A model generated the notes under the pieces. The model did no database searches, was not told where the DNA came from, and worked only from the letters and a program-made list of their open reading frames with translations. From Scenedesmus sp. ARA3 (Eukaryota; Chlorophyta; Chlorophyceae; Sphaeropleales; Scenedesmaceae), in NCBI GenBank assembly GCA_004335835.1, contig RWJK01001840.1, forward strand, positions 62,001 to 126,000: a DNA stretch of 64,000 nucleotides, in the 5' to 3' direction. The position numbers and the translations under genes are program-made. Shown one piece after another: positions 1 through 63,764 of the stretch. The number at the start of each line of letters is the position of its first letter. The first letter of the stretch is position 1.

Positions 1-1121
1 CCACACATCTCAAGCACAGCAAGTGGTGCAGTGGCACCCACTGCCAGCATCACGGCAGCAGCAGCAGCAGAGCTGGCAGCAGCAGCGGAGATGCTGCCAT
101 CGAAGCCGCTGGCAAAGCAGGCGGCTGCGAATGCCAAGTTCACTGCCAAGCTTGCTGCCATGAGTGCTGCGGAGCTGCGGCGCAAATATGCTGAGCTGGT
201 CATCCAGCAGGTGAGTGGTTGCGAAGTGTTATAACACTGTCACAACATGTGATCTGATCAGTGCTGTGACATTTCCCGCCTCCATGAGTGCTGCGGAGCT
301 GCGGCGCAAGTACGCTGAGCTGGTCATCCAGCAGGTGCGTGGCTACTAATAAAACACCATGTCATAACGTGTTGTTTGATCAGTGCTATGACATTCCTGC
401 CACCATGAACGCTGCTGAGTTGCGGCGCCAGTATGCTGAGCTGGTCGTCCAGCAGGTGTGTGGCTACGAATAACACAACACTGCCATAACATGTTATTCA
501 ATCACTGCTGTGACAATTCCGGGCGCCATGAGCGCTGCTGAGCTGCGACGCCAGTATGCTGAGCTGGTCATCCAGCAGGCTGGCTAGCAATGATTTTAGC
601 ATGACCTGTTACCTGATCTCTGTCATAACACTTTCTGCTGCCATGAGTGCTGCAAAGATTTGGCGCAAGCATGCATATAGTGGCTGCAGTGTGGTGCTGT
701 CAGCTTGCTGCTGCTGCTGCTGCTGCTGCCGGGTAATATACGCGCTTGGCGGCGTGGGCATCTTTATGGTGCAAGCATCAACCATTGCTGGTGGTGCTGC
801 TGCTGCTGCTGCTGCCGCCGCCAGGTCGTTCGAGCCTTTGGCGGCGTGGGCATCTTCATGGTGCTTGCGCTGTTCACTCCTCCAGTCTCCACCTGCCTGC
901 TGCCTCCCTGTGGGCTGCCCCCTGTGGTGGTGGCTGTGGTGCCGCTGCTGGTCAGCTTTGCAGTCAGTGCATTTGTGACAGTCAAAGACAAGTTTGTGCA
1001 CCGGCTGGTGTTTGCATTCGACTGGTGGATGCACCCGGAGGACAGGGAGCCAGGGAGGTGGAGCGTGCTGACCAATGGGGTGAAGTTGAACAGGGAGATG
1101 GCAGCTGAAGGCGTTGTGTAA
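1..1121 (+). CDS. Membrane protein of unknown family, 3' part
   Basis: Seen: an exon open from base 1 and ending in a GTGAGT donor after base 210. It is Ala-rich and closes with the charged stretch SAAELRRKYAELVIQQ. A second exon runs 825-1121, after a (CTG)n-CCGCCGCCAG acceptor, and ends in TAA; the phases agree (0/0). The last exon encodes 98 residues with two hydrophobic stretches, around GGVGIFMVLALF and PPVVVAVVPLLVSFAVSAFV, then a polar tail containing EDREPGRWSVLTNGV. Inference: the C-terminal end of a membrane protein whose 5' part lies outside the window. I do not recognise the family. The intron holds four degenerate copies of the first exon's tail and one of the second exon's head (about 735-775); the 3' flank holds three copies of the C-terminal codons. 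Confidence 0.55.
284..660 (+). repeat. Donor-side exon echoes, about 120-bp period
   Basis: Copies of the last ~54 bases of the upstream exon plus its donor begin near 284, 404, 528 and 642. Spacing from the parent at 162 is 122, 120, 124 and 114 bases. The first three still read SAAELRR-YAELV-QQ or nearly so and end in GTGCGT, GTGTGT and a broken GCTGGC; the fourth is decayed. Intronic sequence between copies is repeated too, so the unit is exon tail plus start of intron. Confidence 0.8.
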
Positions 1122-1147
1122 GGAGGGGGCGTGCCAGGGTCCAACAT

Positions 1148-1184
<37 letters not shown>

Positions 1185-1236
1185 GGCGGCAGCGGCTGCG
1201 GCAGCAGCAACGGCAGCGGCAGCCGCAGCAGCAACA

Positions 1237-1413
1237 CCGGGGAGGACAGGGAGCTAGGGCGCTGGAGCGTGCCGATGAATGGAGTGCAGATGAACAGGAA
1301 CACGGCGGCTGACGGTGCTGTTGTGTAAGGAGGGTGCGTTCCAGGGTCCAACGTCAGCAGCAGCAGCAGCAGGCGGCGGTGGCGGCAGCGGCGGCGGCGG
1401 CAGCATCAAAATT

Positions 1414-1471
<58 letters not shown>

Positions 1472-3746: not shown

Positions 3747-6700
3747 TCATTTGCGGGCACCCTTCTTTGCCAGGCATGCCGCAGCGTTGTTTGCGTGAGC
3801 CTCCGCCAGCGCCTGGCTGAAGGTTGCAGCACCGCCAGACGCCTCAGCCTTAGCATATGCCTCTGCAGGGAGAACAGCAGGATGCGGCTTGCACAACTTG
3901 AATGACGCAAAGCTGGCACTCTGGCTGGTGCATGCAGATGAAGCAGCACTACGCATGTGCATGGAGTGTACGTGCTGTTGACAATGAAGAAGACAAACAT
4001 GCAATCCTGGGCCTGCAATGTGAAAGATCTGGGGATCAGCAGCTTTGACCATGCAACACATAACAAGCAGGAATCCAGATAACGATTCACACTCACGTGC
4101 CAGTGCCTGTCCTGGTCCGCTGGCGCAGTCGTTGCCTGCTGCTGCCAGTGCCTGGTTGACAGCAACTGCAGTGGAGGTTGCAGTGGCAGGGCGCGTCAGC
4201 TGCTGCTGCAGCTGCGTGAAGTTGCTGGTGTCAATGTACGTAGATGCACTAGCACTTGCTGTTACAGTTGCTGAGCTGCTGGCTGCTGGTGCAGGAGCAG
4301 GGTTGTTGGCGCTGCTGGTCGTTGCTGCAGGAACAGGAGTATTGGCGGTGGTGGGTGTTGCTGCAGGGACAGGATTGTTGGAGCTGTGGGCAGACAGGCG
4401 TGGGCAGCAGGAGCGTGAGTACAACAGCAGGGACAGGCAGGGCCACACACCGCATATGCCTGATGAGTGCCAGTAGCTTGTTGCTGGCACATGGGGCAAG
4501 TGCCAGTACACACAGCACAGCCTACGCTTCACCAGTTGTTTGAGGCCATATCTCACGGCATAGATCATCTCTCTAGCTCATGATGAGCTGCTGAGATCAC
4601 ATGACAGTGCACCAATCATTGATGCTCTGGCATGATGAGCTGCTGAGATCACATTACAGTGCACCAATCATGATGCTCTGGCTGCTGGGTGCTTGGCCCC
4701 ACCTGGCGGTGGCAGTGCTTGTAGCAGAAGCCAATGCAGAGCTAGTTGCAGAGCCCAGGCAGGCCTGTGCATTGCCCGCATTGGCTCGCGCCAGTGCCTG
4801 GCTGAAAGCTTCAGCGCTGCCTGACGCCTGTGCCTGAGAGTACGCCCCTGCAGCAGCAGCGGCGTCAGAAGCAAAGGCAAGGTCAGTTAAGCCAATGTGG
4901 CCTGCTGACCCCACCTGTTGATGATACTTCAACATAGACCAGCGATGGCAAGTAAACGCACGGACATAAGCAAGTGTTGTATTTGACATACAGCACAACT
5001 TGGACAGAGCAGAGCCAATGTACCACGCTGACTTATTTCTTCACAGTGAATAACCTCCATAAGCAGCCAACTCATGTCATCATGGCAGTGCAAACCAAAC
5101 AGCTTACCTGCGAGTGCCTGCCCTGGCCCGCTGTTGCAGCTGCCGCCAGCAGCAGTGATCGCCTTGCTGATGGCTGAGGCAAAGGCTGGTGCTGACGCGG
5201 GGTTGGTCAAGCCCTGCTGCAGCTGCTGGGGATTGTTCACACCAACATTAGAGGTGGCTGAAGACGAAGCCTGGGCTGTTGCAGGGGTATTGCTGTCATC
5301 CTGGGTTGTTGATGATACAGGGGTTTGACCAGGGCTGCTTGTGGACGTGGATGTGGTTGTGGCAGTTGATGTCATGCTAGTAGTGGCCTGGTGGGTTTGT
5401 GCGGCTGGGGTTGTCTGTGGCACTGTGGGCCCCTGGCGGCCTGGCAGGAGGGCGCCCAGGTAAGCTGCAGCGTTGGGCCAGGACGGGAATTCAAAGCTTG
5501 GCCAGGTGGAGGAGCTGGCAGGTGGTGTGCTGGATGGCGTGGCAGGCGGTGTTGATGGCTGGGAGCTGGCTGCATCATAGCTGGGAGGGCTGCTGCTGCT
5601 GCTGGTCTTGATGTCAACAGCAGGTCTTGGGATGGTCGGTTGCTGCACAACAGCAGGGCTGGGGCTGATGGCCTGGTCAGCAATGACAGGGCTTGGGCTG
5701 GTCGGCACAGCCACTGCCACAGCAGGGCTGGGGCTGGCAGGCTGGTCAACCACAGTAGGACTGGGGCTGGCGGGTTGGTCAGCCACAGCAGGGCTGGGGA
5801 TGGTAGGCTGATCGACTACAGCAGGGCTGGGGATGGTAGGCTGATCGACCACAGCAGGACTGGGGCTGGCGGGCTGGTCAGCCACAGCAGGGCTGGGGAT
5901 TGTAGGCTGGTCAGCCACAGCAGGGCTGGGGATGGTAGGCTGGTCGATCACAGCAGGGCTGGGGCTGGCGGGCTGGTCAACCACAGCAGGGCTGGGGATG
6001 GTAGGCTGATCAACCACAGCAGGGCTGGGGATGGTGGGCTGGTCAACCACAACAGGGCTGGGGCTTGGGGGTTGATCGATCACAGCAGGGCTTGGGATGG
6101 CGGGCTGGTCGACCACAGCAGGGCTGGGGCTGGGCTGATCAATCACAGCAGGGCTGGAAATGGCGGGCTGGTCAACCACAACAGGGCTGGGGCTAGTGGG
6201 CTGGTCAACCACAGCAGGGCTTGGGATGGCGGGCTGGTCAACCACAGCAGGGCTGGGGCTGGGTGGCGCAATTACGATCACAGCAGGGCTTGGGCTGGGT
6301 GGTGCTTCAAGGACATGAGGGATGGGGCTGGTTGGATCCACTGATACATCAGGGCTGGGGCTTGGCAGCTCATCACCAGCAGCAGGGCTGGGGCTGGGTA
6401 GCGCAACCACGATTACATCAGGGCTGGGGCTGGGTGGTGCATCAATAACAGGAGAAGCTGCCGGGGTGGGGCCGCACTGCCCGCATGTGCGTGAACAAAC
6501 TGTGCGCCATAACCCATCTGCGCCCACACCTTTGAAGTTTTTCAATGCAGAACAGGAGTAACCTTCCTTTATCTGCGCAGCACAACAAACAAGAGCGGTC
6601 GTGATGATGGTCATGCTGTCTGTGTAGCAATCCCAGCAGACAGGGCGCTGCTCTAGAATCCATCTGCACATGCGTAAACCAGGAAGAATGGTTTGATCAG

Positions 6701-9700
6701 AACATTCAGGGCTGCACCTGCATCTGTCAAATTCTATTGAAGTGGCAAGCTGTGTGTCTGCTTACAGAGCTGCAATGCGTCAGCATACATACGCACCGCA
6801 TCTTGGCAGCTGTAAATGCCTTCAAAACCTTCAACCGGATATTCAAGGTTTTCATCGCACTCAAGGATAGGATAGTCTTCACTACCCAGAAGGGGGCTAG
6901 GTGGCGCCACATTCGGGGGCGCTGAGGAGTTGCCGCTAGTGCCGCACCGCCCGCATGAGCGCAGGCAGACGCCAAATCTTGCCAAATAATCACATTGACC
7001 CGGTGCAAGTTTTGGAACCTGCGGGGCACGATAATGACGGTGGTGGTAAGCAACAAATCACAACTTATGTATCACCATCCCGCACACTTACACAGCAGCA
7101 GAAGCAGTGCTCATTGTCTACCATCAGCGGCTGGTGGCCAATGCAGCAGTGCACACACACAACTCCTCAACTCCGACAGGGATGCATGTACATTGGCAAG
7201 GCTATACGTCTGCCTGCACTGGCCGCTGTAGTGGAAGCGCAATGCCAATGCTGTGGTGTGCTGTTGGCAGGCGGCATGCAATGCATGTCCTGGCCACGTC
7301 TACCAACGTAATGATTGTGCAAGATAATGTACCAGCTGGATTGGATGAGGCATCATACTGTGAACTGGGAAGACCAGCCACTTTGCTTGTTGGCACAGCA
7401 AATTAGAGATTTTGGCACTGTATGATTGTTTGATAAGCACATGCCAAGCTCGATCATTCAGGTTGTTGTATAGGCACAGCACTGACAACCTGTTTGCTGT
7501 CCTGCTTTTGAAAATTATCAAATAGCAGATGCAAAAAATACTCACCAAATCTTTACAGCGCGACAATTCTTGAGTATCCGGATCGTAGACTGCAATATCA
7601 GAGCATTCCTGTGAGGGCCCACTTGGGTTAGGCGACGCATCCGCAGTCGCATCAGGGCTGGGACTGAGGCTGCAGCGCCCGCACGAGCGCAGGCAGACAC
7701 CAGATCTTGCCAAATAATCGCATTGACCTGATGCAAGTTGTGAGACCTGCGGAGCACAAAATATGACTGTGGTTGTAAGCAGCAGACACAAAATCTGTGT
7801 CACCATCCCGCAAACTACACAGCAGCAGAAACAGTGCTCATTGTCCACAAACACACCAAGCATCAGCGGCTGGTGGTCATCATAGCAGTGAGCACACATA
7901 ACTTCCAACCTCAAGAGGAATGCATGTACATCAGCAAAGCCATACGTCTGCCTGCAATGTTGTAGTAGAAGCGCCATCCTAACGCTGCGGTGTGCTGTTG
8001 GCAGGCGGCACGTGATGCAAGTCCTGGCCACGTCTATAAAGACATGAATCTACAATTTGAGGTACGTGGTGGCCTGGATGAAGCATTATAATGTAAAGAG
8101 GGTGAGTGCAGCCACTTCACTTGTTTTCACAACACACCATTTCTTTACACTACAACTTTGGCACTGCAGAACGGTTTAAAAAGCACATGACAAGCTTGAT
8201 CATTCCGTTGCTGCCGTCAAGACACAGCACTAACAACCTGTTTGCCACCCTGCATTTGGTGGTTGGTGAATAGCAGCTGCACAAACCACGCACCACTCCT
8301 CTACACAGCACTGACGTCCTGTTTGCTGTCCTTCATTTGGTGGCTGGTGAATAGCAGCTGCACAAACCACTCACCACTTCTTTACATTGGTAGGTAATGC
8401 CAGTAGCTGTATTGATGAATCCATTATCAGAGCATTCCTCTGGGGGACCACTCGGGCTGGATGACGCATCCGCAATCACATCAGGGCTGGAGCTGGGTGA
8501 AGCATCTGCAACCAAATCAGGGCTGGGGCTGGGTGACGCATCGGCAGTCGCATCAGGGCTGGGGCTGGGTGACGCCGCCACAGTTACATCAGGACTGGGG
8601 CTGGGTGACGCCTCCGCAGTTACATCAGGACTGGGGCTGGGTGACGCCTCCACAGTCACATCAGGGCTGGGGCTGGGTGACGCCTCCGCAGTTACATCAG
8701 GACTGGGGCTGGGTGACGCCTCCGCAGTCACATCAAGGCTGGGGCTGGGTGATGCATCCACATTCACATCAAGGCTGGGGCTGGGTGATGCATTCACAGT
8801 CACATCAGGGCTGGGGCTGGGTGATGCATTTACAGTCACATCAGGGCTGGGGCTGGGTGACGCCTCCACAGTCACATCAGGGCTGGGGCTGCGTGACGCC
8901 TCCACACTCACATCAGGGCTGGGGCTGAATGATGCATCTACATCTGACTGAACAATCACATCTGGGCTGGGGCTGGGTGACGCATCCACAGTCACATCAA
9001 GGCTGGGGCTGGGTGACGCCTCTGCAGTCACATCAGGGCTGGGGCTGGGTGACGCATCCACAGTCACATCAGGGCTGGGGCTGGGTGACGCCTCTGCAGT
9101 CACATCAGGGCTGGGGCTGGGGGGCGCATCCACAGTCACATCAGGGCTGGGGCTGGGTGATGCCTCCACCGTCACATCAGGGCTGGAGCTGGGTTGCTCA
9201 TCAACTGCAGCAGGGCTGGGGCTTGGACTGGCGCTGGCTTGCTCGCCATCCGCAGGAGGGCTGGGGCTGGGTGAAGCATTTGCTGGCACCTCAGGGCTGG
9301 GGCTGGGTGACAAGACCACAGCGGGGGATGGTGAGGGGCTGGTGCTGCAGTGCCCACACGTGCGCAAGCAGTAGCTTCCTTGTTTCATCCATTTTTGTTG
9401 ACAAGCACCCCAGTTTCTCTGCACGGCGCACGACAGTGCAGGGACATAAGACAACATCAGACATAAGACAACCATCAGGCTGGTGATATCACCATCCCAC
9501 AAGCCATGCAGCAGCAAAGGAAGTGTTGTGTAGGTTTCCTGCAAATGGACAACAGCAAGATGTGGATGCTGCTTGACATGCCGTGTCAAACTTACCAAAG
9601 TTAGTCCACTTCAGCCCGTGGATCTGCCAGGAGCAGTAACACTTGAACCTGCTATGTTCACAGGTATGGGAGTGGCTGATGCATAGCTGCTCAAGACACC

Positions 9701-39804: not shown

Positions 39805-41822
39805 GGCTTCTGCTTGCGCTGTGGCTGTATGTTGTGTGAGGGCCTAGTGCGGGGCGCTGCTTTGACGCGCTACACAATGTGGGTGTCCAATTGTTGACGT
39901 GCATGCTCTTTGCTGCTTCATTGGACCCTGTGCTGGCCAGTCATCGATTGCTTCTTCTTTGTGCTGCTGTGCTGCAATCATTGTTGTCAGAGCTTGGCGG
40001 CAGGAGGTGTGACCTTACGCATGCATGCCAAGCAGGCGGCTGTGTTTGCAGCGCGGTTGAATTAGTTTTCGTCATCAGCGTATGTGATGCGCTTTGAGAG
40101 TTTTGCAGTGTGGTTCAGGGTGGGCGCCTGGGTTAGGTAGCTGGTAGGGTAGCTTTGCCATGCAGGATGGGCTGTGGCAGCCTCTGCACCTGACAGTCAG
40201 TCAGCCTGTTGTGTGGCAGGGCATCAGCATCTGCAGCAGGGCGCTGCAGCTGACAGCACTGAAAGAGTGTGTTTGCCCTGTCTGTCTGGCGCCATGTATG
40301 CTGGGCGCGCTTGCTCACCTTGGCATGCAGCTGTGTGCTGTCTTTGACATCCTTTAGGCAGAGAGTGTTGAACTGGGTATGCAGCTGGTCAGGGCTGTCA
40401 TGTTCCTCATCTTATCGCTGTCGCCTGGTGCAGCTTCTAGCAGATCCTGCACGGCTGCAGGTAAGATAGGATACGTTACTGGTGCAGGCAAGCACTGTTT
40501 TTTGACGACGCGATCACATACAGCAATTTCTCGTGCTTTGATGCTGGTGCTTCGGATGCAGGTTGCTTGAGACTGACTTGATGCTGCTTGTGACCCGACT
40601 CTGCATAAGCCATTTGGGTGTGTGACGTTGCTGAAACATGCAACTTGAGGTGCTCGCACCAAGTATGTTGCCAGGCAGAGATTGCTGTAGGATGCTTCAT
40701 GCGCATACATCTTCACCAACCAGTACACTTAGTGGCGTGCTTTGGTCATCATGGAAATCATGGCACAGTATGCCTGCAGATGCAGCATGTGAGACAAGTG
40801 GTGACCCTGCAACACTCAAGCTTGCTGGGCTGGTGTGCAGCTTGTCTGCCGCGCTGCCACTCCAGGTGAAGCTCTAGGCTGTTAGGTATCAGTGTGTTTT
40901 GGTGTGTGTCATTCATAGCATTGTGTTGTTGGTGTCTGCTGCATTCTTATGTCGAGTGAACTGGAGCAGCCAGCAGGGTCACCATGTAGCATCATGCCAA
41001 TGATTGCTTTGTGGTGACCTGCTTGTGGTAAGCCAACAAAAGGTTGGTAACTCCGCTGAATTTTGAGTGCGTATTTTCTCCTTCTTATTCTGCACCCGAG
41101 TTCGAGGGCTTTGGCATTGAGCACTGGCAGTCGGGGAGAATGGCGCCAGCAGGTTGGCCCAACCTCATCAAATCAGCGCAATGCGGTGGATGCATTGCTT
41201 TGACAATATGGCTGGCTGCCAGAGAGAACCTGGTGTCAACCACAAAAAAAAACAATGCCATGTGAGCAATCCTGGCCTTGAGCTCAGCTGGCGGGTACAT
41301 GCAGTTTGGGCTACGTGGCACACCTCCCATTACGCAGTGAAATGCTCGACAATGTCACATTGCCAGATAAGCGCGCAGCCAAGTCAGGGCTTTCAGTTTC
41401 AATTCAGCTATGACTTCAAGGTTGGTGGAGATGAAGAGATGGCCCCAACTGCAGCAGGCAATGGCGCCCTTTCAGAGCCCGCCACTAGAGGACCACCCGT
41501 CGCGAGTGTGCCGAATGATCTGCAGCTACATACAAAATGTTATCAAGTAACAAATTTTAAGCCCTGCAAAAGCTTTGCTGAGCGCGGGCAGAAGCAAGAG
41601 CTGGTCCCTGCACTGGTGCCTGTCAGGCCGGTCCAAATAACAAAGGGGTGCACTCAACTGCGCACCGCTATCCGCGCTGACGACATATAAGGAACCATCT
41701 GCCATCGCTCAACCAAAGACTTTGTTGTGCGTGCTCTCCATTACTCGCTGTTCAAGCTGTACGTGCTGGACACGTTTTTCGTGCTCACCTTCACAATCCT
41801 CTGTCCCTAATTGACCGTCACA
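39805..41822. other. Intergenic; one possible small coding fragment
   Basis: No confident gene. It contains the DYRK 3' region, the possible - strand exons at 40241-40421, and a 178-codon + frame at 41154-41690 of unknown type. The last ~130 bases are the 5' side of the malate dehydrogenase gene. Confidence 0.4.
40241..40421 (-). CDS. Possible exon pair, unrecognised
   Basis: On the - strand a hydrophilic frame (EEHDSPDQLHTQ, then FNTLCLKDVKDSTQLHAK) ends at 40319 with a GTGAGC donor. A CTGTCAG acceptor follows, then a phase-0 frame starting LQRPAADADALPHNRL and ending at a GTGCAG site near 40180-40241. The sequence has coding character without repeats, but no start, family or full gene could be assembled. 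It may be a relic. Confidence 0.25.
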
Positions 41823-42532: not shown

Positions 42533-42646
42533 ATGTTGTGCCCACCACTGACCTGCAGGAGGCCTGCGCGGGCGTGGAGGTGGCTGCGGTGGTGGGCGGC
42601 TTCCTCCAATGCCACACAACTCAACTCAACACCTCTTCCTCAACAC

Positions 42647-45109: not shown

Positions 45110-45180
45110 TGACGCTATATTCAATAGTATTGTTGGTAGTGGCGCTTGCCTGCATGCATGCGGGTAAATGCGGCACAGTG

Positions 45181-45474
45181 AGGGAGCTGGCCCTGGCCTG
45201 CATCAGCGAGGCGGCAGCAGCAGCAGCACGGTAGTTTGCCAAGCTTGGTGCACGTTATTTTTGCCTTTTTGCTGCTCGTGCTGCTGGTGAGCTGCTGGCA
45301 GAGAGGGAGCTGGTGCTGGCATGCATCAGCGAGGCGGCAGCAGCAGCACAGTGATGACGCTATATTTAAAAGTTTTGTTGGTGGTGGCGCTGGCATGCAT
45401 GAGGCAGCGAAGCAGCGCGAGAGCTGGCGCTGGCATGCATCCGCAAGGCAGCATGGCAGCAGCAGCAGTACAAT
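45181..45474 (+). repeat. Copies of the last MDH codons with stops
   Basis: [14 protein letters not shown]... recurs at 45181-45234 (TAG) and as [16 protein letters not shown] at 45304-45354 (TGA), then as a decayed piece near 45415-45474. The 3' flank is also repeated: TGATGACGCTATATT follows both the true stop (45107) and the stop at 45352. The unit thus spans coding end and 3' untranslated region. Confidence 0.82.
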
Positions 45475-47223: not shown

Positions 47224-50200
47224 ATGCATCGGCCTGGACTAGCCGTCTGGCTGTGCCTGCTAGTGCTAGTCGGGACATTTGGTCCCATAGGTAAGCAATT
47301 GTGGCCTTCTGCTGCAGCAGCTGACTCCGGTACAAGGCCGGCCTGCTGCTGGCTGTGCTGCATGGAGGTCCTCTGCAGCAGCACTGCAGCAATGATACCC
47401 CGCTGTCTTGACCAGCACTTGCTGCCTCCTGCAACTAGCATGTTGCATCACGTTACAGCATCCTAGCATCCTCTTCTCCAGTTTTTTTAGCAACCTTGAA
47501 GTGCAATTGACCCCTTATCAAGAACATCACTGTCTGCTTTCTCTGTTGTCCTTGCCTTGTAATGATGCCTTGCAGGAATACATGCCAGCCCCATAGCAGC
47601 AGCAGCAGCAGCACTAGGCCGGCGTGCCCTGCTGGCCCCAGGCAGCCTCGACGCCACGTCAGCAGCCTGTGCCAGTTTGAATTCAAAGCAGCTGCTGGTC
47701 AACGGCTACTTCAACAAGGTTGACCTGTCAGACATGCACAACATGCTGCTGATGGCCAGCCTGGCAAATGACGTGTACCCATGGAGCAAGCAGTACAACA
47801 TCCCGCTGCTGGATGTGGCAGACGGCCTGGATAAAGAACAGGTGCGGCAGCTGCATTCTTGTAGATGCATGATCCTATGAGTACATATGCGTACATGCAG
47901 CTGTGGTGTTGTGTGGCATTGGCTAAGGCAGCAGCAGCCAGCCGGTGGATGTGGCAGATGGCCTGGATACAGAACAGGTGGGGTGTTGGCCGCATGCAGG
48001 TGTTTTGTGTGTTGCAACACTCGTGTCGTTGTGCATGCGATGTGTACCCCTGGAGCAAAGCAGTACAACATCCCGCTGCTGGATGTGGCAGACGGCCTGG
48101 ATAAAGGACAGGTGGGGCTGTTGGCCGCATGCATGTGTTTCGCAACACCTTGATCAATGTGCATGCAATGTTAGTGTGCAAGCAGTACAACATCCCGCTG
48201 CTGGATGTGGCAGATGGCATCCTTAAAGAAGAGGTGCGGCTGTTGGCCGCATGCATGTTTGCAACACTTCATTCATTGTGCATGCAGTGTGCATGCAGTG
48301 GTAGCTCGAGTGTGCAAGCAGTACAACATCCCGCTGCTGGATGTGGCAATGGCTTGGTTAGAGAACAGGTGGGGCTGCTGGCCCCATGCATGTGTTTTGC
48401 AACACATTTTTTCTTGTACATGAAATGTTGGCTCGAGTGTGCAAGCAGTACATCCCGCTGCTGGATGAGGCAGATGACTTGGGTAAACAACAGGTGCGGC
48501 TGTTGGCCGCACGCATGTTTGCAACACTTCATTCATTGTGCATGCAATGTTGGCTCGAGTGTGCAAGCAGTACAACATGCTGCTGCTGGATGTGGCAGAT
48601 GACTTGGACACAGAACAGGTGCGGCGGCTGAGGGCATCATGACGCATGTGTTTAAGTATATGTGTATGAGCAACTGATGCTGGCGTAGTGATGCCATACT
48701 AATGTGGTGGTAGCTGAGGTAGCAGCGGCCAACAAGGCTGGCTAGCTGTTGCGCGTAGCAGTGCAGCAGCAAGCTGGCTGTTGAGCAGCAGCGGCTTGCA
48801 GCAAGGCAGGCTTGCTTGCGCAGCAGCACCAAGCCTTGCTTGTGCAGCAGCTTGTGCCACAGCGCCATGTTGCTTGCATGCTCATCTTCATCAACAGGAC
48901 CACATGTCAACACATGTGTTGGGTGGTCAGCCGCGCTTGCGCAATCAGCTGCTTACGCTCACCTGCTGCTGCTGCTGCTGCCGCAGGCTGCGCGCTTTGA
49001 GCGCCTGTTTGGCGAGAAGTACAGGCAGCTGGGTGCGACCAGCATCCAGTTCCTGGACTTCTACGAGACGCCACACATCCCCATCACGGGCGCAGCGGCA
49101 CACGCGGTGGTTCTGAGTACACCCAGCGACGTGTTCGTGGCCATCAGGTGGGTGAAGTGTCATGCCGCAGCTGTCATGTTGAGATTGTGTCATGTCTCTT
49201 CGTATTGTGCCATAAGTTGGTGCTGAGCACACCCAGCGACGTGTTTGTGGCCTGAAGGTTGGTGTAGCGTCATGCTGGCGGCTGTAGATACATGTTTTTG
49301 ACTCGTGTCATACATGTCAAATCGTGTCATGCGGTTAATGCTGGGCACGCCATCAACCTGTTTGTGGCCATCAGGTGCGCGCATTGCAATGCTGGCAGCT
49401 GTTTGTTGGACTCTTGAAACCCGATTCACTGAAATGCTCCGCCGGCAGCACTGAAATATGCTTTGCACAGCAGACGCTTGAAAGGCAGCAGGTGGCAAAG
49501 CCTGGCCTATGTCCTCAGCAGCAACCACCCATGTCCATGCACAGCACAATTCGGCACTGGCCCCTCTCCCCTGCGTTTGCATTGCCTTGTCAACAACGCA
49601 CTGCTCATATTGGATGCTTTCCTCTTTATCATTCTGCAGGGGCACAGCAGATGCCGGTCAGGTGCGCATCACCGGACACTATTACACCGAAAAATGGACG
49701 ATCTACAACACAACTCTGGACGTGTACTATGCCCCCTACGCCTCCTTTGTGGGTGGGCTGTGGCCGCAGCTGCTGCCGGCTGTCAAGCGCGCAACAGCCG
49801 CAACTGACAGCCCGAGCACCGCAAATATCTACATCACGGGACACAGCTTGGGCGCTGCGTCAGCATACATGGCGGGCCTGTCCCTGAAGGAGGCTGGGTT
49901 TAGGGTGTCTGGGGTTTATGCGTTTGACCCATACCATGTCGGCTACAGCTGCGAGGCGGGGCAGGCGTGCTGGGTGTCGCTGTATGAGCAGCACCTTGGA
50001 GACGTGACCTACTCCTGGTGGAACAACCAAGACCCGGTGAGGCGCCGCAGCAACCTTGTTTGGCCTAAGTCGCGCCTGCCACTCTGTTTGGTCTGCACAG
50101 TGCAAGTATCCACATGCAGTTGCAGCGCACGCCAAGCGCCCCGCCTTTGTGCTATGCGTCTGCTGCTCCTCCCTGATGCTGAGCATGACCTTCACCCTGA

Positions 50201-50745
50201 CGCCAGCCCTGCAACCGCATCCTACGGACACCGCATATCCTGCAGTCGCTGCTCATGTCCCTTTGATTGTGTTGCTGATGCCTGCCTTCCGCTGCAATGC
50301 CACTGCAACACCTCCTTCACCCCCGCAGATCCCTCAGCTGCTGGACTTCCACTTTCAGGGCACGCCCAGCGGCAGCCGCTTCGGCCACGTGCACGCTGAC
50401 GGCCGCAACTGGATGCGCATTGTGGGCGACAAGTGCCTCTCAGCACACAACAACCGCCTCATGGAAGCCTGCCCGCCAGAAATCGATGCAGCAGATGGCG
50501 CTGCAGATGGCGCCTGCCCCAGCAAGTTTGGGGACCACCTGCCTTGGAAGATCCTGATGCGCATCGCACACTGCGCACTGCTGCAGCCGCAGCAGCAGCA
50601 GCAGCAGCCGCCGCCTGCCAATGCGCGGCTGGCATCGCGGCTGCAGCAGCAGCAGCGCTCGAAGGAGGGGCTGCGGCTGAGTGCTTGCTCGAGCTCCAGC
50701 GTATGGAACATCTTGCTGGGGCTGCCACCGCCCGGCAGGAAGTGA
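47224..50745 (+). CDS. Secreted class-3 (Rhizomucor-type) lipase
   Basis: Five exons in phase: 47224-47290, 47576-47841, 48987-49147, 49640-50036, 50329-50745; 435 residues. A signal peptide starts MHRPGLAVWLCLLVLVGTF. The alpha/beta-hydrolase motifs of the lipase-3 family are present: oxyanion region VFVAIRGT (about 160-167), nucleophile elbow ITGHSLGAA with Ser234, and NNQDPIPQL carrying the probable catalytic Asp296. The intron between exons 4 and 5 falls exactly within this DP-IP motif. The His is probably in GHVHADG or GDHLPW; I cannot decide. The C-terminal ~60 residues are Gln/Ser-rich. Known reaction: hydrolysis of acylglycerol esters. Inferred location: secretory pathway or extracellular. 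Confidence 0.88.
47937..48625 (+). repeat. Six donor-side echoes of lipase exon 2
   Basis: The tail of exon 2 (KQYNIPLLDVADGLDKEQ, donor GTGCGG) is copied in intron 2 with ends near 47979, 48111, 48233, 48367, 48492 and 48618. Each is followed by GTGGGG or GTGCGG. Several copies contain one- to three-base indels that shift frame. Following intron sequence (ttggccgcatgcatg) is repeated as well; spacing is about 120-135 bases. Confidence 0.9.
49218..49380 (+). repeat. Two donor-side echoes of lipase exon 3
   Basis: The exon 3 end (STPSDVFVAI, donor GTGGGT) recurs as CTGAGCACACCCAGCGACGT... near 49222-49257 and as a weaker copy ending GCCATCAG-GTGCGC near 49374. Confidence 0.8.
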
Positions 50746-50895
50746 GGCAACGCACAGGCGGGTGCAGATGTGGGTGCGTTGCTGTGGTCGGTTCTAGGCA
50801 GACGGTGTTGTGCTGCTTCCAGGCAGTGGTGTGCAGGCTATGCTGTGCGCCTGCCTGCCTAGTGTATCGGTGCCAGGCATGGTGTGTTCATCCAG

Positions 50896-51003
50896 CTGCA
50901 GCAGCAGCAGCAGCGCTCGAAGGAGGGGCTGCGGCTGAGTGCCGGTTCAAGCTCTAGCGTTTAGGACATCCTGCTGGGGCTGCCGCCACCCGGCAGGAAG
51001 TGA
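50896..51003 (+). pseudogene. Copy of the last lipase codons with stop
   Basis: CAGCAGCAGCAGCGCTCGAA... to the PPPGRK codons and TGA repeats 50642-50745 at about 90 percent identity by eye. It carries an internal TAG after SSSSV. The copy starts about 150 bases after the true stop. Confidence 0.82.
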
Positions 51004-56104: not shown

Positions 56105-59100
56105 GAAAGCAGTAGCATCGGCAGTTGCAGCTGGTATGCAGCAGCTGTGACAACTGCAGCAGGGGGCAGCAGGTGCAGCTTGTGTTAGAGGGCATGTGGC
56201 GTGGCGCTGCCAGCCAAACTGCTTGACATTGCTGCATGCATGGCATGCCATGCAAGCGTTGTGAAACTCCCTCATGCAGGCAGCAGCTGTTTGGGCTAGC
56301 TTATGTATGCAAGGCATGGCAGCTGTTCCTTGGAGTGGGCGGCGTTGTGCAGCAGCTGCATGTGGGGGTGCATGCACGAATGTGCGCAGCAACCGCGGCT
56401 GAGCGATGCTGTGTGTAGTGCAGACAGTGTGCATGTGTGGAGATGGGCGAGTGCCTGCGGTGTTGCAACAAGCCGAGTGAAACCAGGCAGCGCTACGTGG
56501 GGTTGGGTGCCGCCGTTCTGCTCTGCATGGTTGGGCACACTAAACACTGCGTGATGTTGAACCCAATTCTGCAAAACCGCGTGCAGGTGAAGAACCCCAT
56601 GACCATGACTGAGAAGATCCTGGCCAACCACAGCGACAACAAGCTGGTGAGCCTCGCTTGTTACGTTCGTGTTACGTTATGTTATATATCATGTTACTGA
56701 GCTGCAGAGTGTGTGGGGTTTCCGTCAGCTCAGCAGAGCTTAGCCAGCAGCAGTTCCACAAGATGTGCCAGCAGCATGATGTGCTAGGACCGTACACAGC
56801 AAGCACAGCAGGCTGTTGTGTGGCTTGGCCCAGGACTGTGCTGTGGCTGTATTGGTGCGCCTGCTGATGTGCCGGCCTGCAAGTGATCAATCAGTGTCGG
56901 GCAGCAGCGGCACCGTCAGTAGCCTGCCATGCTGCATGATCATGCCTGTGGTGTGCTGCACTTTAAACAGCCCTGCTACCATGCATGCTGACATGCGCGT
57001 CTGCTGCCGCTGCTTTGTCAGGTGGTGCCGGGCCAGAACATTCGCTGGGGTCGACCTCCCTCTGCATGCCACATGCTTCTAAACTCTGCTGGTGCTGCTG
57101 CTGCTGCTGCTGCTGCTGCTGCAGGTGGTGCCGGGCCAGAACATCTGGACCAAGGTGGACAAGCTGATGACGCACGACGTGTGCGGCCCAGGCACCTTTG
57201 GCATCTTCCAGAAGGAGTTCGGGGAGAACGCACAGGTGAGCTATAATCTCCACCAGCAGCAGCAGCAGTGGCGGCGGCAGCAGCAGCAGCAGCCACAGCA
57301 GCAGCAGCAGCAGGACCCATGCGGCAGCTTGGGTGGATGGTGTTTGAGGTCTGAACTTTTGTGCTTGCAAAGTGGCGGGATGCGGCTGCGCAGATGGTGG
57401 GCAGCAGTGCGCAGCAGCAGGCTGCAGCAGTAGCAGCAGCAAGCGCTGGATTAGTGGGTGGGTGAAAGGTTAGGAGAGCAGCAGCGTGAACAATTTGCAG
57501 TAGTGGCAGCAACAGCAGAGGGTGCCAGTTGCAGCTGCTTGTGTTGCAGCAGCAGTAGGGGGGTTGTGTTGCAGCAGCAGTAGGGGCAGCAGGGGCAGCA
57601 GCTCAACCACCTGCATCAGCTTTGGGTGGGGCACGTGTTATGGCTCTTGCATGTTGCTGTGTTCTCAATGCGCCCGCTGCTTGTGCTGCCTGTGCCTGGT
57701 TAGGTGTGGGACCGCGAGCGTTGCGTTGCAGCATGGGTGGCTGGCATTTGAGTTTGAGCAGCAGCAGCAGCAGCAGCATGGGTGGCTGGCATCCGAGTTA
57801 ATGCAGCAGCAGCCTGGCGTCCGAAGGGAAGCAGAGCAGCAGCATGTACAGCAGGAGGTGACTGCGGCAGTGGTGGCCCTTGCAGATGCTTGTGCAGCAG
57901 CCAAAGCAAGTGCGGCAGCAGTCCAAGCGAGTGCGGCAGCAGGAGCAGCAGGGCCTGCAGCTCAACAGCCTGCATGCTCCACCCCAGAGGAAGCGCTGTT
58001 GCTGACAGCAGTACGTCAGTCTTGCAACATGTTGGCGGGGCACAGGCCCCGCCACGGGTGGGGTAGGTGTAATGGCCCTTGCATGCGTTGCTGCTCTGTT
58101 CCTAAGCGAGTTGCACTGCTGCTGCTGCCTGTTTGTGATGCTTCAGGTGTGGGACCGTGAGCGCGTGGTCATCATCCCCGACCACTACATCTTCACGGCG
58201 GATCCGCGCGCCAACAGGAACGTGGACATCCTGCGGTGAGCGGCGCGTTGGGCATCTTACGTTTTTCTTACGAGCATAGTCGCAGCGAGAGGGCGGCCAA
58301 CCATGACATCAATCACAGAAATTTTGCATAAGCCACATCAACTTGGCCAGACTCATGCACTCACGCTGCTGCTGCTACTGCCGCATGCTGTTTATCAACT
58401 CTATGTCATGCTGCTGCTGCTGCTGCTGCAGCGAGATGGCGGGCAAGTACAACATCAAGTACTTCTACGACATCCAGGACCGCTCCAACTTCAAGGCTAA
58501 CCCAGACTACAAGGGCGTGTGCCACGTGGCGCTGGCGCAGGTGCGGGCATCTCAAACAACAACCCTAACTATTTCTTGTCTCTGTTCTAAGCATCCCATG
58601 GCATCTATGCTTTCAATGCTTTTTATGCTTCGATGGCTACAAGGGCGTGTGCCATGTGGCGCTGGCGCAGGTGCGGGCAGTTTGGTGCTACTGTTGCACT
58701 GTTGTGCAGGGGTGCTGCTGGTGCACTGAGGAGTTGTTGATTGAGTGCAGCATGCTGCAGCAGCGTGCAGCAGCAGCAGCTTGAAGCAGCAGCAGCGTGA
58801 AGCATAGAGCGGCAGTGTTGCAGCTGTATCAAGGACCAACTTGGTGTCAGCAGCATGGTCTCTGCTACGTTGACAGGCTTGGCTAGCTGTCGCCAGTCGC
58901 CATAGTCCATCAACAAGGTACACGGCGCTTGATCAGCATCGTCACCTCCACTGCTGCTGCTGCTGCTGCTGCTGCTGCAGGAGGGCCACTGCAAGCCTGG
59001 TGAGGTGCTGTTTGGCACCGACTCCCACACTTGCAACGCCGGCGCCTTTGGCCAGTTTGCCACGGGCGTGGGCAACACTGACGCAGGCTTCATCCTGGGC

Positions 59101-61164
59101 ACGGGCAAGCTGCTGATCAAGGTGCGGCTGCTGCTGGGATCTGTGTTCCTTTACCTGAATTCTGATGCAAGGTGTAAATGTAGTTGATACTTTGGCTTTG
59201 TCCTGGGCACGGGCAAGCTGCTGATCACGGTGCGGCTTTGTTCTGTTACACACCGCTTACATAACGCTTACTTCTGTCAGCGCTACTCCTCAGCGTCGGC
59301 GGGGTGGTGTGTGTGAGGGCAACACTGGCGCGGGCTTCATCCTAGGCACGGGCAAGCTGCTGATCAAGGTGCGGCTTTGTACTGTTACAGAACGGCTATG
59401 AACGGTTATTCCTATCTGCATAACTGTTATTTCTGTCAGCACTACTTTTCAGGGTTGGCAGGGTGGTGTGTGCGGGGTAAACACTGATGCAGGCTTCATC
59501 CTGGGCACGGGCAAGCTGCTGATCAAGGTGCGGCTGCTGCTGGCGTTGAATTTTGTTTTATGCTTTACGAAACTATAGACAAACTTGGTGTGACGTCATC
59601 CGGAACCCCGGATTACGCCACATCAAGTTTGTCTATAGTTTCGTAAAGCATAAACCAAGATTCAACGCCAGCCGCAGCCGCACCTTGATCAGCAAGCTGG
59701 GGTTCCGGCAAGCTGCTCTGATCAGGGTGGTGGTGCTGACAGTGCTGCTGCTGTTGCTGCTGCCTGCCCTGCGCAGGTGCCCCCCACTATGCGCTTTGTG
59801 CTGGACGGCGAGATGCCTGAGTACCTGCTGGCCAAGGACCTCATCCTGCAGGTGGGCTGCTTTTGTATACATGTATTCACGGGGGGGGCACTAAGAAATC
59901 TGACAGACACTATGTTGATTAGTTCGAAAGGGGGGGTACCCCCACCCCCCCTTCCTCCATCAAAAGGGCTCAAACAGCCGTTTACACCCCCCTAAATATT
60001 AATTATATATATTGTTTAATTGATATGCGGGTTTATTTGGGGTAGTTCGTGCTGTATGACACAGTTGTGATGCCTGGATCGATCCATCGATCGAACCGCT
60101 GCGTGACAGCTGCAAGACAGCATCGACCTTAACAAAGCCCTAACATATAGGCGGTTGCAAAGCATGTACAAAGCGGTTGCTATGGCCTGGTTCACTGTGC
60201 TGCGCTTCGCCCTGAGGTCGCAAGCACCCCTCTGCCTCTGCCTGAGCTGTCAGCGGTGCCCCCCTAAAAGTGCCTGTAGCACCCTCTGGTCACCAGAACT
60301 TAAGTAAGGAACCTACAAACCACCTTAATCAACTCATATCAACAATAGCTTGCATTTGAGCTGCGTACGGCGCTGATCCGACGCCTACAAAGAAAGTTGG
60401 CAGCAAGACAGCAAGATACCTGAACCCCCCCCAGACCCCCACCCCCCACCCTCTTTTGACCTTGTCAGATGGGCGATTATCTATTATTTTAAGTTATTTA
60501 TATCGTAATTAATATATTGTGTAAGTTTCGATCCAAATCAACTTAGTGTCAAAAAGTTACAGAGTGCCCCCCCCCCTTGATGTATTCGTGGATATTCTTG
60601 ACGAAAAATGTGTGAGCATCGCAAGCGTTGCGACATATGGAGTACCTGCTGGTCAAGGAATTCATCCTGCAGGTGGGATGCTTGTGATTTTCTCTCAATG
60701 CATGTGTTTTGTGACTAAGTGACATGTGGCTTTGTGATTATGTGACATGTGGCTATGTGACATGAAAAGGCACGCATTGCAACATGTATGTAACTGCTGG
60801 CCAAGGACGCATCCTGCAGGTGTGCTGCTTGTGTGCTAATCTCCTTAAACAATGGGGTGCAATGTGTCGATGTTTTCACGCATGAATGCTACAAGCATTG
60901 CGACGGACGGAGTACCTGCTGCTGCTGCTGCTGCTGCTGCTGCAGATCATCGGCAAGAGCAGCATGACGGGTGCCACCTACAGGGGCATGGAGTTCACCG
61001 GGTCTGCCATTGAGGGCATGAGAACACGAACATGGCTCACACACCCTGCTGCTGCTGCTGCCGCTGCTGCTGCTGCTGCTGCTGCTGCCAGATCATCGGC
61101 GAGATCAGCGTTGCTGGTGCCACCTACAAGGCCATGGAGTTCACCGACTCACACACTCACCCAC

Positions 61165-61202
<38 letters not shown>

Positions 61203-63764
61203 ATCATTGGCGAGATCAGCGTCGCGGGTGCCACCTACAAGGCCATGGAGTTCACACGCTCACATACCCTGCTGCTGCTGCCGCCGCTGCTGCTGTGCTG
61301 CTGCTGCTGCTGCTGCTGCTGCAGATCATCGGCGAGATCAGCGTTGCCGGTGCCACCTACAAGGCCATGGAGTTCACCGGCTCACATACCCTGCTGCTGC
61401 CGCTACCGCTACCGCTGCCGCCGCTGCTGCTGCTGCTGCTGCTGCTGCCGCCGCCAGATCATCGGCGAGATCAGCGTTGCCGGTGCCACCTACAAGGCGA
61501 TGGAGTTCATCGGCTCAGCCATTGAGGGCATGAACATGGATGAGCGCATGACCGTGTGCAACATGGTTGTGGAAGCGGGCGGCAAGAACGGCGTCATTGC
61601 GCCCGATCAGACCACGTTTGACTATGTGCGGGAGCGCACTAGCGAGGAGTTTGAGCCAGTGTACACCGACGCTGCCGCCAGCTTCTGCGCAGACTACAAG
61701 TGAGTGCGGGTTTCGGGGTTTGGGGGTTTATGTGGGTGGGCAGAGAGCCTGAGCTTTTGGGGCCTGCGGTGCAAGGCCATGCTGGTGTGGAGCCATGCAC
61801 TACAGCCTGTAGTACAGGCGAACGCGCAAGAGGGGCTATGGATTATTGTACCGGGTGTTGCAGGGTGTTGCAGGATGTTTGGGGTGGTGCATGGTTTTTT
61901 TCTGCACGGAAGGATCAGAGTTATGCTGAGGAGTTTGAGCCGGTGTACACTGACGCTGCCGCCAGCTTCTGCGCAGACTACAAGTGAGTGGGGGTGCGCA
62001 GCTGCGGGGTAGCAGCTTGGGGGACGAGCAGGGTGCTACGTGTTGTAGGACATCTGCAAGAGTGTATATCTCCAGAATCTGCTGCTATCAACCCTGCGTG
62101 ATGTATTCATGGTATCTGACATCCAACGTATTGTTTTGTTGTGTCAGTTGTTCAACAGCAGAACCTCGTCTCACGCTTTAACGCAGGTGGGATGTGTCCA
62201 AGCTGGAGCCGCTGGTGGCTGCCCCACACTCGCCAGACAACCGCAAGACGGCGCGCGAGTGCAGCGACGTGAAGATCGACCGCGTCTACATCGGCAGCTG
62301 CACAGGTGCGGAAAATGGCTGTTGTTTGTGTGAGGTATGTACAGCGACTGGCTATGTGAGGACGGCTGACTTCAGAGCAGCCGGCACGTCAGCACACCGC
62401 TGACCATGTTTGACCGGCCTACTCAATAGCTGCTGCTGCCTCTCTGCTGCCGCTGCTGCATGCTTATGATAATTGCTGCAGGCGGCAAGACGGAGGACTT
62501 CATGTCAGCCGCCAAGCTGTTCCACAGGGCCAAGCGCCAAGTGAAGGTGCCCACGTACCTGGTGCCCGCCACGCAAAAGGTGTGTTTGGGTAACGCCGGA
62601 AAGATGACAATTTTCATGATATCATAATGTCATATTATCAAAGATTGAAGGTGGATATTATAATGCAAAGACGGCGCCCGCCGCGCGAAGGTTGCGGCGC
62701 AGCGCGTTGGTAATTGGCTGTTGTGGGGTGCACAGGTGAGCGAAGCAAGCTGTATGCTGCTGAGCTGGTGCGAAACGTTGCAGTTGCCACTCACACCACT
62801 CACACAACTTTCATGCTGGTGCTGACTGTGCTGTGCTGTGTGCTGCTGCCGCAGGTGTGGGCTGACGTGTACACGCTGCCAGTGCCCGGCTGCGACGGCA
62901 AGACAGCAGCGGAGATCTTTGAGGAGGCCGGCTGCACCACGCCCGCAGCACCCAGCTGCGCAGCGTGCCTGGGCGGGCCCCGCGACACATTCGCGCGCAT
63001 GAACGAGCCCGAGGTAAGCATTTTTGTGTTTGCATGTGTTTTTATGCGGATGCTGGGGTTGTTTCAGCATGTTGGCGTGCCTGGGCGGCCTTTGCGACAC
63101 CTTTGCGCGCATGAATGAGCCCTGGGTGCGATGGGTAGTGTCACAAAGCAATCCCACTGTCAACATGGATTGCGGTGGCGGCGGCGGCTGCTGCCTATTG
63201 CTGGTGTTTGCATGTAGAGATGCGCGCATGAACGAGCCGGGGGTGTGTGCAGCGGATGCAGGGCCGTCGGTGGCCCATGCAGTACCTGCCTGCTCTAGCA
63301 GTGTATGTTTGTTGCAGAACAAACACGACTTAACGAGCTCCTGCCTGCTGCTGCTGCTGCTGCTGCTGCAGGTGTGTGTTAGCACCACCAACCGCAACTT
63401 CCCCGGGCGTATGGGCCACAAGGAGGGCCAGGTGTACCTGGCCAGCCCTTACACCGCGCACATGTCTGACCTGCTGCACTGCTGCTGTTGCTGCTGCTAC
63501 TGCTGCTGCGGTGCCTGTCATGTGTGTGTCAGCATGCACCACCAACCACAACCATTAATGGGGCACACTACGTCTTACGCGTGCCTTACTGCCTTGCTGC
63601 TCTGTTTTTTCACACTGCCCTGCCAGGTGTGCGTCAGCACCACCAACCGCAACTTCCCCGGGCGCATGGGCCACAAGGAGGGCCAGGTGTACCTGGCCAG
63701 CCCCTACACCGCAGCAGCATCAGCACTCAAGGGCTTCGTGTGCGACCCACGCGAGTACATGTGA
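55637..63764 (+). CDS. LEU1L: 3-isopropylmalate dehydratase large subunit, chloroplast
   Basis: Core exons in phase: 56587-56646, 57125-57235, 58147-58235, 58432-58540, 58981-59121, 59777-59851, 61458-61699, 62187-62305, 62482-62579, 62855-63013, 63627-63764 (TGA), 446 residues. Likely transit-peptide exons are 55637-55679 ([14 protein letters not shown]) and one from 55797 ([20 protein letters not shown]). The join from there to 56587 is unresolved, so a small exon may be missing. It isomerises 2- and 3-isopropylmalate in leucine synthesis with a small-subunit partner. Aconitase-superfamily signatures are present: [25 protein letters not shown], and 4Fe-4S Cys in GSCTGGKTEDF and [12 protein letters not shown], then NRNFPGRMG. 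All ligands are intact. Symbol by analogy with Chlamydomonas. Introns are full of partial exon copies. Confidence 0.93.
57022..57048 (+). repeat. Acceptor-side echo of the VVPGQN exon
   Basis: TTTGTCAG followed by GTGGTGCCGGGCCAGAACAT repeats the opening of the exon at 57125, about 100 bases upstream of it, then diverges. Confidence 0.75.
57702..57720 (+). repeat. Short acceptor-side echo of the VWDRER exon
   Basis: A TTAG followed by GTGTGGGACCGCGAGCG matches the start of the exon at 58147 (GTGTGGGACCGTGAGCG). The match is 16 of 17 bases, about 440 bases upstream. Confidence 0.5.
58637..58677 (+). repeat. Donor-side echo of the [11 protein letters not shown] exon
   Basis: CTACAAGGGCGTGTGCCATG...GCGCAG followed by GTGCGGGCA repeats the exon end at 58540 and its donor with a single visible substitution. 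Confidence 0.88.
59188..59536 (+). repeat. Three donor-side echoes of the TGKLLIK exon
   Basis: The tail of the exon ending at 59121 (GCTTCATCCTGGGCACGGGC... with donor GTGCGG) recurs ending near 59229, 59369 and 59528. Copy 2 and copy 3 reach back to the GNTDAG codons. All keep GTGCGGCT at the donor. Intron sequence between them (TACTGTTACA..., TTCTGTCAGC) is repeated too. Confidence 0.88.
59511..59700 (+). repeat. Near-perfect inverted repeat (hairpin) with exon-derived arms
   Basis: Left arm 59511-59594 and right arm about 59618-59700 are reverse complements with few mismatches; the spacer is about 23 bases. The core ATGCTTTACGAAACTATAGA pairs with TCTATAGTTTCGTAAAGCAT. The left arm contains the third exon echo (GCTGATCAAGGTGCGGCTG), and the right arm carries its complement (CAGCCGCACCTTGATCAGC), so the palindrome formed by inverted duplication of an echo. 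Transcribed with the gene, it would fold into a stem of about 80 pairs. Confidence 0.9.
59878..60579. mobile_element. hAT-like non-autonomous TIR element in an intron
   Basis: About 702 bases with imperfect terminal inverted repeats of roughly 45 bases: CACGGGGGGGGCACT... at the left end and the complement of CAAGGGGGGGGGGCACT... at the right. Both ends share GACACTA-GTTGATT and TCGAA further in. The flanks carry a direct ATGTATT at 59871-59877 and 60580-60586, 8 bp (ATGTATTC) if the left end is set one base in. TIRs starting CA-rich-G and 7-8 bp target duplications fit the hAT superfamily. The interior has C-homopolymers and A/T-rich blocks near 59995-60020 and 60480-60520, unlike the surrounding DNA, and no transposase frame. 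Confidence 0.75.
60638..60830 (+). repeat. Two donor-side echoes of the LLAKDLILQ exon
   Basis: After the TIR element, TGGAGTACCTGCTGGTCAAG...CTGCAG-GTGGGA (to about 60672) and AACTGCTGGCCAAGGACGCA...CTGCAG-GTGTGC (to about 60819) repeat the exon ending at 59851 with its donor. The element therefore inserted between an exon and its echoes. Confidence 0.85.
60920..61457 (+). repeat. Four-copy acceptor array before the [13 protein letters not shown] exon
   Basis: (CTG)n-CAG or CCAG followed by the exon head occurs at 60946, 61092, 61203 and 61325 before the full exon at 61458. The first is divergent ([17 protein letters not shown]...) but longest; the next three read [18 protein letters not shown] almost unchanged. 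Each copy ends after 50-75 bases and runs into the next CTG tract without a donor. Spacing is 146, 111, 122 and 133 bases. Confidence 0.9.
61925..61990 (+). repeat. Donor-side echo of the CADYK exon end
   Basis: GAGGAGTTTGAGCCGGTGTA...GACTACAA followed by GTGAGT repeats the last ~60 bases of the exon ending at 61699, almost exactly and with the same donor. Confidence 0.88.
63063..63245 (+). repeat. Donor-side echoes of the [15 protein letters not shown] exon
   Basis: Near 63073-63122 the block TGCCTGGGCGG...TTTGCGACACCTTTGCGCGCATGAATGAGCCC repeats the exon end at 63013. A shorter GCGCGCATGAACGAGCCG lies near 63221-63240. The donor position reads TGGGTGCG in the first and GGGGTGTG in the second. 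Confidence 0.8.
63372..63556 (+). repeat. Acceptor-side copies of the last isomerase exon
   Basis: A (CTG)n-CAG acceptor and about 88 bases of the last exon ([15 protein letters not shown]...LASPYTA) occur at 63372-63459, where the reading departs at HMSDL. A shorter piece (GTGTGTGTCAGCATGCACCA) follows near 63523. The full exon starts at 63627. Using the first copy as terminal exon would lose the C-terminal [10 protein letters not shown]. Confidence 0.88.

Follow-up and report, generated by a model that had tools for sequence, protein, structure and literature searches.

Copies of exon edges recur in introns of a scenedesmacean green alga, anchored on splice junctions and at preferred distances

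One model of intron gain starts from a segment internal to an exon, which is duplicated so that an intron is made. Tandem duplication has also been described across an exon border: according to the excerpted account of a potato gene, a single tandem duplication over the intron-exon border created a new intron (PMC4974935). For introners, insertion into nucleosome linkers is discussed in the excerpted text (PMC9860276), and RNA-guided double-strand-break repair, as outlined in the excerpts of another source, is a setting in which transcripts can affect repair in their own gene (PMC11390984). In Scenedesmus acutus, intron retention and exon skipping are described for one gene, in a paper whose main text, as excerpted, does not contain the word 'repeat' (PMC12899622). 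Here, we describe introns that contain diverged copies of their own adjoining exon edge, weigh how these copies might arise, and compare them with the systems above.

The window, meaning the whole 64,000-nucleotide stretch analysed, covers bases 62001-126000 of contig 1427 in an assembly of 87.3 Mb and 1567 contigs; Pfam matches in its genes comprise class 3 lipase, malate dehydrogenase and a protein-kinase domain. Our curated set consists of three hand-spliced, frame-consistent gene models with 20 introns together: malate dehydrogenase (MDH, 6 introns), the class 3 lipase (4 introns) and isopropylmalate isomerase (leuC, 10 introns, with exon numbering starting at 56587). The MDH model is identical over 343 aa to annotated Tetradesmus obliquus protein P0001, and the alignment of the lipase model to T. 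obliquus protein P0241 has one gap and 432 matches among 434 aligned residues. P0121 covers 100% of the leuC model at 95% identity and is encoded on a JGI contig of only 1.7 kb, which leaves no space for introns in it. These protein matches make the 20 curated introns well founded and identify the alga as T. obliquus or a species very close to it.

The wider sample of about 260 kb comprises the window, 30 kb adjoining it and about 166 kb from 16 other contigs (loci L001, L002 and L024-L029 lie outside it). Our own gene finder, trained on the three curated genes, divided this sample into 42 gene pieces with 274 predicted introns; apart from the curated genes, all of these models are predictions. 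Longer self-training of the finder fused genes and was hence replaced. Before counting, 50 predicted exons resembling a neighbour's edge were reset to intron, some of which may be genuine exon duplicates; this step leaves the curated set of 20 introns unaffected. A copy was called when an exon edge aligned to its own intron with a score of at least 44. The tests of spacers, indels, codon positions, donor positions +1/+2 and synonymous changes used the 78 junction-anchored rows of an earlier list in which masked N could match N; the corrected list likewise holds 78 such rows, which may not be the same ones throughout.

By this measure, 10 of the 20 curated introns contain 23 copies of their own exon edge, 20 of which reach the junction exactly, with the remaining three ending 2-5 nt before it. 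The curated control gave 6 of 760 foreign pairs at a score of at least 44, in a comparison where masked N could match N. In the wider sample, 55 of 274 predicted introns carry 88 copies (51 donor-side and 37 acceptor-side), spread over 8 of the 17 contigs sampled. Exon edges matched none of 5480 foreign introns paired with them and none of 548 reversed own introns, no inverted edge copy reached score 44 among the 274 introns, and 7 of 1706 comparisons with introns at least two introns away in the same gene gave a match. Most copies (78 of 88) lie within 6 nt of a predicted junction; ten lie 9-85 nt off it, some apparently from misplaced predicted donors, and were omitted from later tests, and two of the 88 sit 78 and 85 nt within a predicted exon rather than at its border. 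The exon-edge copies are thereby confirmed as real, and they are more regular than first described. The first-pass annotation had proposed a genome-wide scan of introns against their own exon edges, and the 260-kb sample yields the clear excess it anticipated; its claim that most multi-exon genes are affected was too broad, with copies in 20% of sampled introns and in half of those in the three curated genes.

Copy content differs strongly among genes (permutation p<0.0005). The kinase gene at 35796-39839, which we take to be the DYRK gene that the same annotation described as free or nearly free of copies, indeed has them in 0 of 9 introns, and in the wider sample one 20-intron gene and one 12-intron gene lack any copy. 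Copies occur in 26 of 43 introns of at least 450 bases versus 29 of 231 shorter ones. Among the 274 sampled introns, the lengths of those without copies cluster near 180-300 bases, and no convincing period was found in the lengths of sampled introns. The copies mapped in the window, headed by one real edge for orientation, are as follows, with distances in bases.

158-210, plus strand: real exon edge (MSAAELRRKYAELVIQQ) in the predicted model of the window's 5' gene, with its donor following 210
282-455, plus strand: two donor-side copies of the 158-210 edge, ending at about 334 and about 455, distances 124 and 245
42533-42613, plus strand: acceptor-side copy of the start of MDH exon 3 (real exon 42678), distance 145
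44007-44201, plus strand: two donor-side copies of the end of MDH exon 5 (real junction 43838), at 44007-44081 and 44155-44201
44711-44760, plus strand: donor-side copy of the end of MDH exon 6 (real junction 44658), distance 102
45180-45469, plus strand: more copies of the MDH coding end, beyond the stop codon
47938-48493, plus strand: five donor-side copies of the end of lipase exon 2 (real junction 47841), successive distances 122-136
49218-49252, plus strand: donor-side copy of the end of lipase exon 3 (real junction 49147), distance 110
50895-51003, plus strand: copy of the lipase coding end (original 50637-50745), distance 258
58637-58679, plus strand: donor-side copy of the end of leuC exon 4 (real 58507-58549), distance 130
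59194-59543, plus strand: three donor-side copies of the end of leuC exon 5, at 59194-59237, 59317-59376 and 59472-59543
60640-60834, plus strand: two donor-side copies of the end of leuC exon 6, past an insertion of a repeat element of about 700 bp
60946-61384, plus strand: four acceptor-side copies of the start of leuC exon 7 (real 61458), each preceded by CTG repeats and CAG
61928-61995, plus strand: donor-side copy of the end of leuC exon 7 (real 61644-61711), distance 284
63075-63122, plus strand: donor-side copy of the end of leuC exon 10 (real 62963-63010), distance 112
63372-63455, plus strand: acceptor-side copy of the start of leuC exon 11 (real 63627), distance 255

Some of these copies are nearly intact. 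Those of MDH exon 6 and leuC exon 4 are identical at 48 of 50 and 42 of 43 positions, respectively, beside spacers without significant similarity, and the copy of the leuC exon 11 start matches at 80 of 84, with all 4 changes synonymous. Besides splice-edge copies, ends of coding regions are copied, in MDH (repeats spanning 45036-45469) and in the lipase gene (50637-51003). These coding-end copies hint that the copied boundary need not be a splice site, although three of the four coding ends inspected contain GTGA, which makes them donor-like. A predicted coding-end copy also lies on the minus strand at 2747-2932 of locus L018, where the stop TAG has become TGA and the changes, by eye, are mostly synonymous with an in-frame insertion. 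The element of about 700 bp in the leuC intron 6 array (59878-60573), which separates the real edge from its copies, is related, at 75-92% identity, to sequences on contigs 859, 1151 and 264. A 178-bp inverted repeat (91%) at 59517-59694 adjoins the third copy of the leuC exon 5 end and includes a 19-base inverted stretch of that edge. Elsewhere in the window, minisatellites of 33-36 bp at 5617-6262 and 8454-9194 lie inside long minus-strand open frames that encode repeats rich in proline and serine.

Nearest copies lie at two preferred distances from the real junction, 118.4±15.8 bases in 39 of 52 cases and 238.7±11.6 in 11, with two between; the corresponding bins are 80-149, 210-269 and 150-209. 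Uniform placement within introns put a mean of 9.8 and a maximum of 20 copies (2000 runs) in the 80-149 bin, compared with the 39 observed. A unit of 100-135 bases, as proposed at the outset, thus describes one peak (118±16) but not the second (239±12) of a bimodal spacing; at distances near 240, some cases have a worn middle copy and others have none above shuffled background. The copied stretch extends about 35-85 bases into the exon. Among 30 copies at distances of 80-149 from exons of at least 120 nt, the copied exon part has a median of 48.5 nt, which is not what whole-exon copies with their own acceptor and donor would give, and is at most 70 nt in 90%, versus 53% expected (KS p 1.8e-6). 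Donor-side and acceptor-side copies have similar geometry: where the nearest copy lies within 150 bases, the median exon part is 43 for donors (n=23) and 48 for acceptors (n=16), and the median intron part is 72 and 66, respectively. Divergence of the 78 copies spans 0 to about 24% without a single age peak (14 at 0-4%, 26 at 4-8, 13 at 8-12, 14 at 12-16, 8 at 16-20 and 3 above), so the process looks ongoing.

Self-comparison of introns with their exon edges found junction-touching repeats in 64 introns versus intron-only repeats in 3 (96%); the clearest of the latter is a 27-bp minisatellite in a predicted intron at 6760-7030 of locus L009. Position count alone would give a junction share of 39-51%. 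We simulated 900 duplications of 118 bases, placed at random but never wholly within an exon, whose neutral copies then acquired indels and 0-0.22 substitutions per site; 421 were detected as junction and 288 as intron-only, or 59% versus the observed 96% (p 1.1e-11). The simulation takes intron-only duplications to be viable, ages to be uniform and the predicted introns to be correct, and its indel rate is a guess. Random intronic tandem repeats require positions independent of exon borders, and the introns depart from this. Taken with the non-uniform exon share of the unit, this contrast supports the early suggestion of a process centred on splice junctions.

Of the 51 nearest copies, 23 showed significant spacer similarity (z>2), with z>3 in 19 of them and 2-3 in 4; another 7 had a z of 1-2, and the z of 21 did not exceed 1. 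Donor copies with an edge identity of at least 0.90 have a spacer z<1 in 8 of 17 cases, a combination seen in 0 to 0.8% under a neutral whole-unit simulation; two of these eight 'unrelated' spacers (L011 983 and L017 2403) retain a similar stretch beside the junction, making the 'edge-only' class less clean than the score implies. Edge-only and whole-unit classes share the same distances. Moreover, synonymous differences per copy are similar (86 in 34 edge-only, 91 in 31 intermediate and 29 in 13 whole-unit copies), and edge-only copies are therefore not simply older. A reading of the spacers as all-or-none, drawn from X-drop extension, was rejected when a more sensitive test and ten alignments gave a mixture. 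Searching the sample with spacers as a possible shared repeat element (20 of 21 cases) gave no strong cross-junction match among the matches listed, with weak ones elsewhere. We infer two outcomes of one type of event, either full tandem duplication or insertion of the edge alone.

The copied donor sites are strong. GT is kept in 40 of 46, and they score 6.96 versus 7.20 for real donors and -0.89 for other intronic GTs, and 38 of 46 exceed the 95th percentile. The picture is less clear for copied acceptors, of which 26 of 32 keep AG and 14 of 32 exceed the 95th percentile. Differences at donor positions +1/+2 (9%) are on par with the copied edge, and copied donor edges have an AG close to where they begin in 21 of 46 cases versus a background of 0.34. 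In the database proteins of MDH, lipase and leuC, every copy is skipped, and the copy attached to the exon body is the version found in the protein. The idea that the copies are decoy sites therefore holds as a potential, given the strength of the copied donors, but finds no echo in the proteins of these three genes. Among the 274 introns, 69 are followed by an exon that starts with GT; at a score of at least 24, the start of 12 resembles that of the following exon and the end of 17 that of the preceding exon, compared with 0.5% and 1% of shuffled pairs. These are possibly introns born by duplication or slips of the gene models.

Differences between edges and copies number 98, 75 and 197 by codon position, and indels are mostly of 1-2 nt, in equal-length alignments, so gaps tend to pair. 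Counting one copy per junction, 143 changes are synonymous and 124 non-synonymous, for an omega of 0.60 (0.44-0.82), or 0.50 (0.35-0.71) in donor and 0.83 (0.43-1.39) in acceptor copies. In 16 arrays with at least two copies, changes private to a single copy comprise 55 synonymous and 76 non-synonymous ones against a neutral expectation of 28.5% synonymous (omega 0.55 with a CpG-aware spectrum, z 3.4); columns classed as shared (9), real-or-root (12) or complex (7) are excluded from this count. Synonymous-only differences mark 11 copies with at least two changes, versus 6.3 expected. An omega of about 0.5-0.6 on the copied edges is unexpected for pure by-products; the short indels and the ordinary loss of GT and AG count against steady use. 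The deficit of amino-acid changes may mean that the copied edges are partly used as coding sequence, that they arose through exchange between diverged haplotypes, or that some mutation bias remains. Coding-like selection as the sole cause was set aside on codon positions and indels, was reopened by the omega results and is now a rival. Gene conversion between edge and copy was rejected by argument only, as it should lower the synonymous share rather than raise it.

The reading we favour, with a probability of roughly 0.52, is that DNA spanning splice junctions is repeatedly re-copied nearby at a fixed step, resulting partly in full tandem duplications and partly in edge-only copies. Such an event could begin near the junction, when copying slips or switches template backwards by about 118 bases. 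If copying simply went on, exon edge and spacer would be duplicated together; if the template switched forward again just beyond the splice site, the edge alone would be inserted, a two-switch step that has no direct sighting among the copies. Events internal to exons would be purged by selection, since they alter the protein, although such purging alone does not account for the scarcity of intron-only events. Most copies would then be decaying by-products that meanwhile act as strong decoy splice sites and lengthen introns. Chromatin, nascent RNA or a repair enzyme are candidates for setting the step and tying it to the junction. No ancestral or allelic empty site was found, as a 2.5-kb leuC query matched no second copy in the assembly. 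A bolder version, which we regard as doubtful, would be a dedicated or chromatin-guided DNA-copying process in Tetradesmus. Recognising exon-intron borders from either side, it would copy the edge again along with about 5-16 adjoining intron bases at a donor or 3-8 at an acceptor, and place the copy one or two steps of about 118 bases into the intron, perhaps with nascent RNA as guide or template; intron growth in this genome would stem mainly from it.

The alternatives each capture part of these data. Ordinary tandem duplications could arise anywhere, with exonic ones purged and exon-touching ones recognisable for longer through exon constraint, without any junction preference. Purging predicts the near-absence of copies far inside exons (two, with 78 of 88 within 6 nt of a junction), and many pairs do show whole-unit similarity; nevertheless, we consider this account unlikely, because the simulated 59% falls well short of the 64 of 67 introns observed, exon position and spacing are both non-uniform, and dissimilar spacers beside edges at least 90% identical are not reproduced. 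Unequal exchange between diverged haplotypes or lineages, in which copies are born with coding-like divergence and diverged introns, would jointly explain the synonymous excess and the faster-looking divergence of introns. It leaves the fixed spacing and the junction preference unexplained, however, and no second leuC haplotype was matched in the assembly, leaving it a small chance.

That the copies are used, with alternative splicing or translation keeping copied edges under purifying selection as spacers drift, draws on the omega of 0.55 in the 16 arrays and of 0.50 in donor copies, on donor sites equal in strength to real ones, and on the 11 synonymous-only copies. It seems rather improbable in view of the 9% change at donor +1/+2, the broken GT in 6 of 46 and AG in 6 of 32, the indels of mostly 1-2 nt, the acceptor omega whose interval (0.43-1.39) spans one, and the MDH, lipase and leuC proteins that skip all copies; great age would also require more synonymous differences in edge-only than in whole-unit copies, which are alike. 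An assembly artefact, in which two haplotypes or strains are falsely joined end to end, would likewise yield conserved edges with diverged introns. Arrays of up to five copies, a repeat element inserted inside one array, many levels of divergence, a constant step and copies on 8 of 17 contigs make it an unlikely source, with a very slight chance of being correct. We give next to no credence to a mobile element or introner family carrying the repeats, even though algae are rich in introners according to the excerpted source (PMC9860276), as each copy resembles its own exon and no foreign pair of the 5480 matches. Random duplication with selection, introners and minisatellites, as tested, thus fail in part or in whole.

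If recurrent re-copying across junctions is the correct reading, one genome offers a repeatedly sampled process of intron lengthening and of strong spare splice sites, at ages from fresh to nearly erased. Intron growth, the spliceosome's choice among near-identical sites, and a possible influence of chromatin or transcripts on local duplication would all become testable. Automated gene prediction and read alignment may place splice sites wrongly in such genes; our own finder called 50 copy-like stretches exons.

Single duplications across intron-exon borders are known, whereas searches of open-licence PubMed Central papers turned up no description of a pattern with this scale, position and step. 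The model of exon-internal duplication shares with our case a short local duplication in genes with consequences for splice sites, but it makes an intron, whereas the algal copies lengthen existing ones (an intron start resembling the following exon was seen in only 12 of 274). Closer is the potato gene, in which, as the excerpts have it, a tandem duplication likewise spans the intron-exon boundary and carries splice signals along (PMC4974935). Boundary-crossing duplication, the mark of intron gain by tandem duplication, is thus present here too. In that account, however, the potato case is one event that made a new intron, whereas the alga has tens of events within a small sample, with a fixed step and on both sides of exons, and its copies are skipped in the three genes checked; no new intron by duplication was found in MDH, lipase or leuC, and in other genes such introns may be among the 12 of 274. 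Introners also represent large-scale intron change in algae, but are described in the excerpts as families common to several genes (PMC9860276), in contrast to copies private to each junction and with no sequence shared between introns of different genes in 5480 foreign pairs. RNA-guided repair offers a mechanistic analogy only, as junction duplication is absent from its excerpted description (PMC11390984). Finally, intronic minisatellites and variable tandem repeats can form head-to-tail arrays with units of about 100 bp, as some of these copies do, but the algal copies differ in being anchored on the junction and placed non-randomly.
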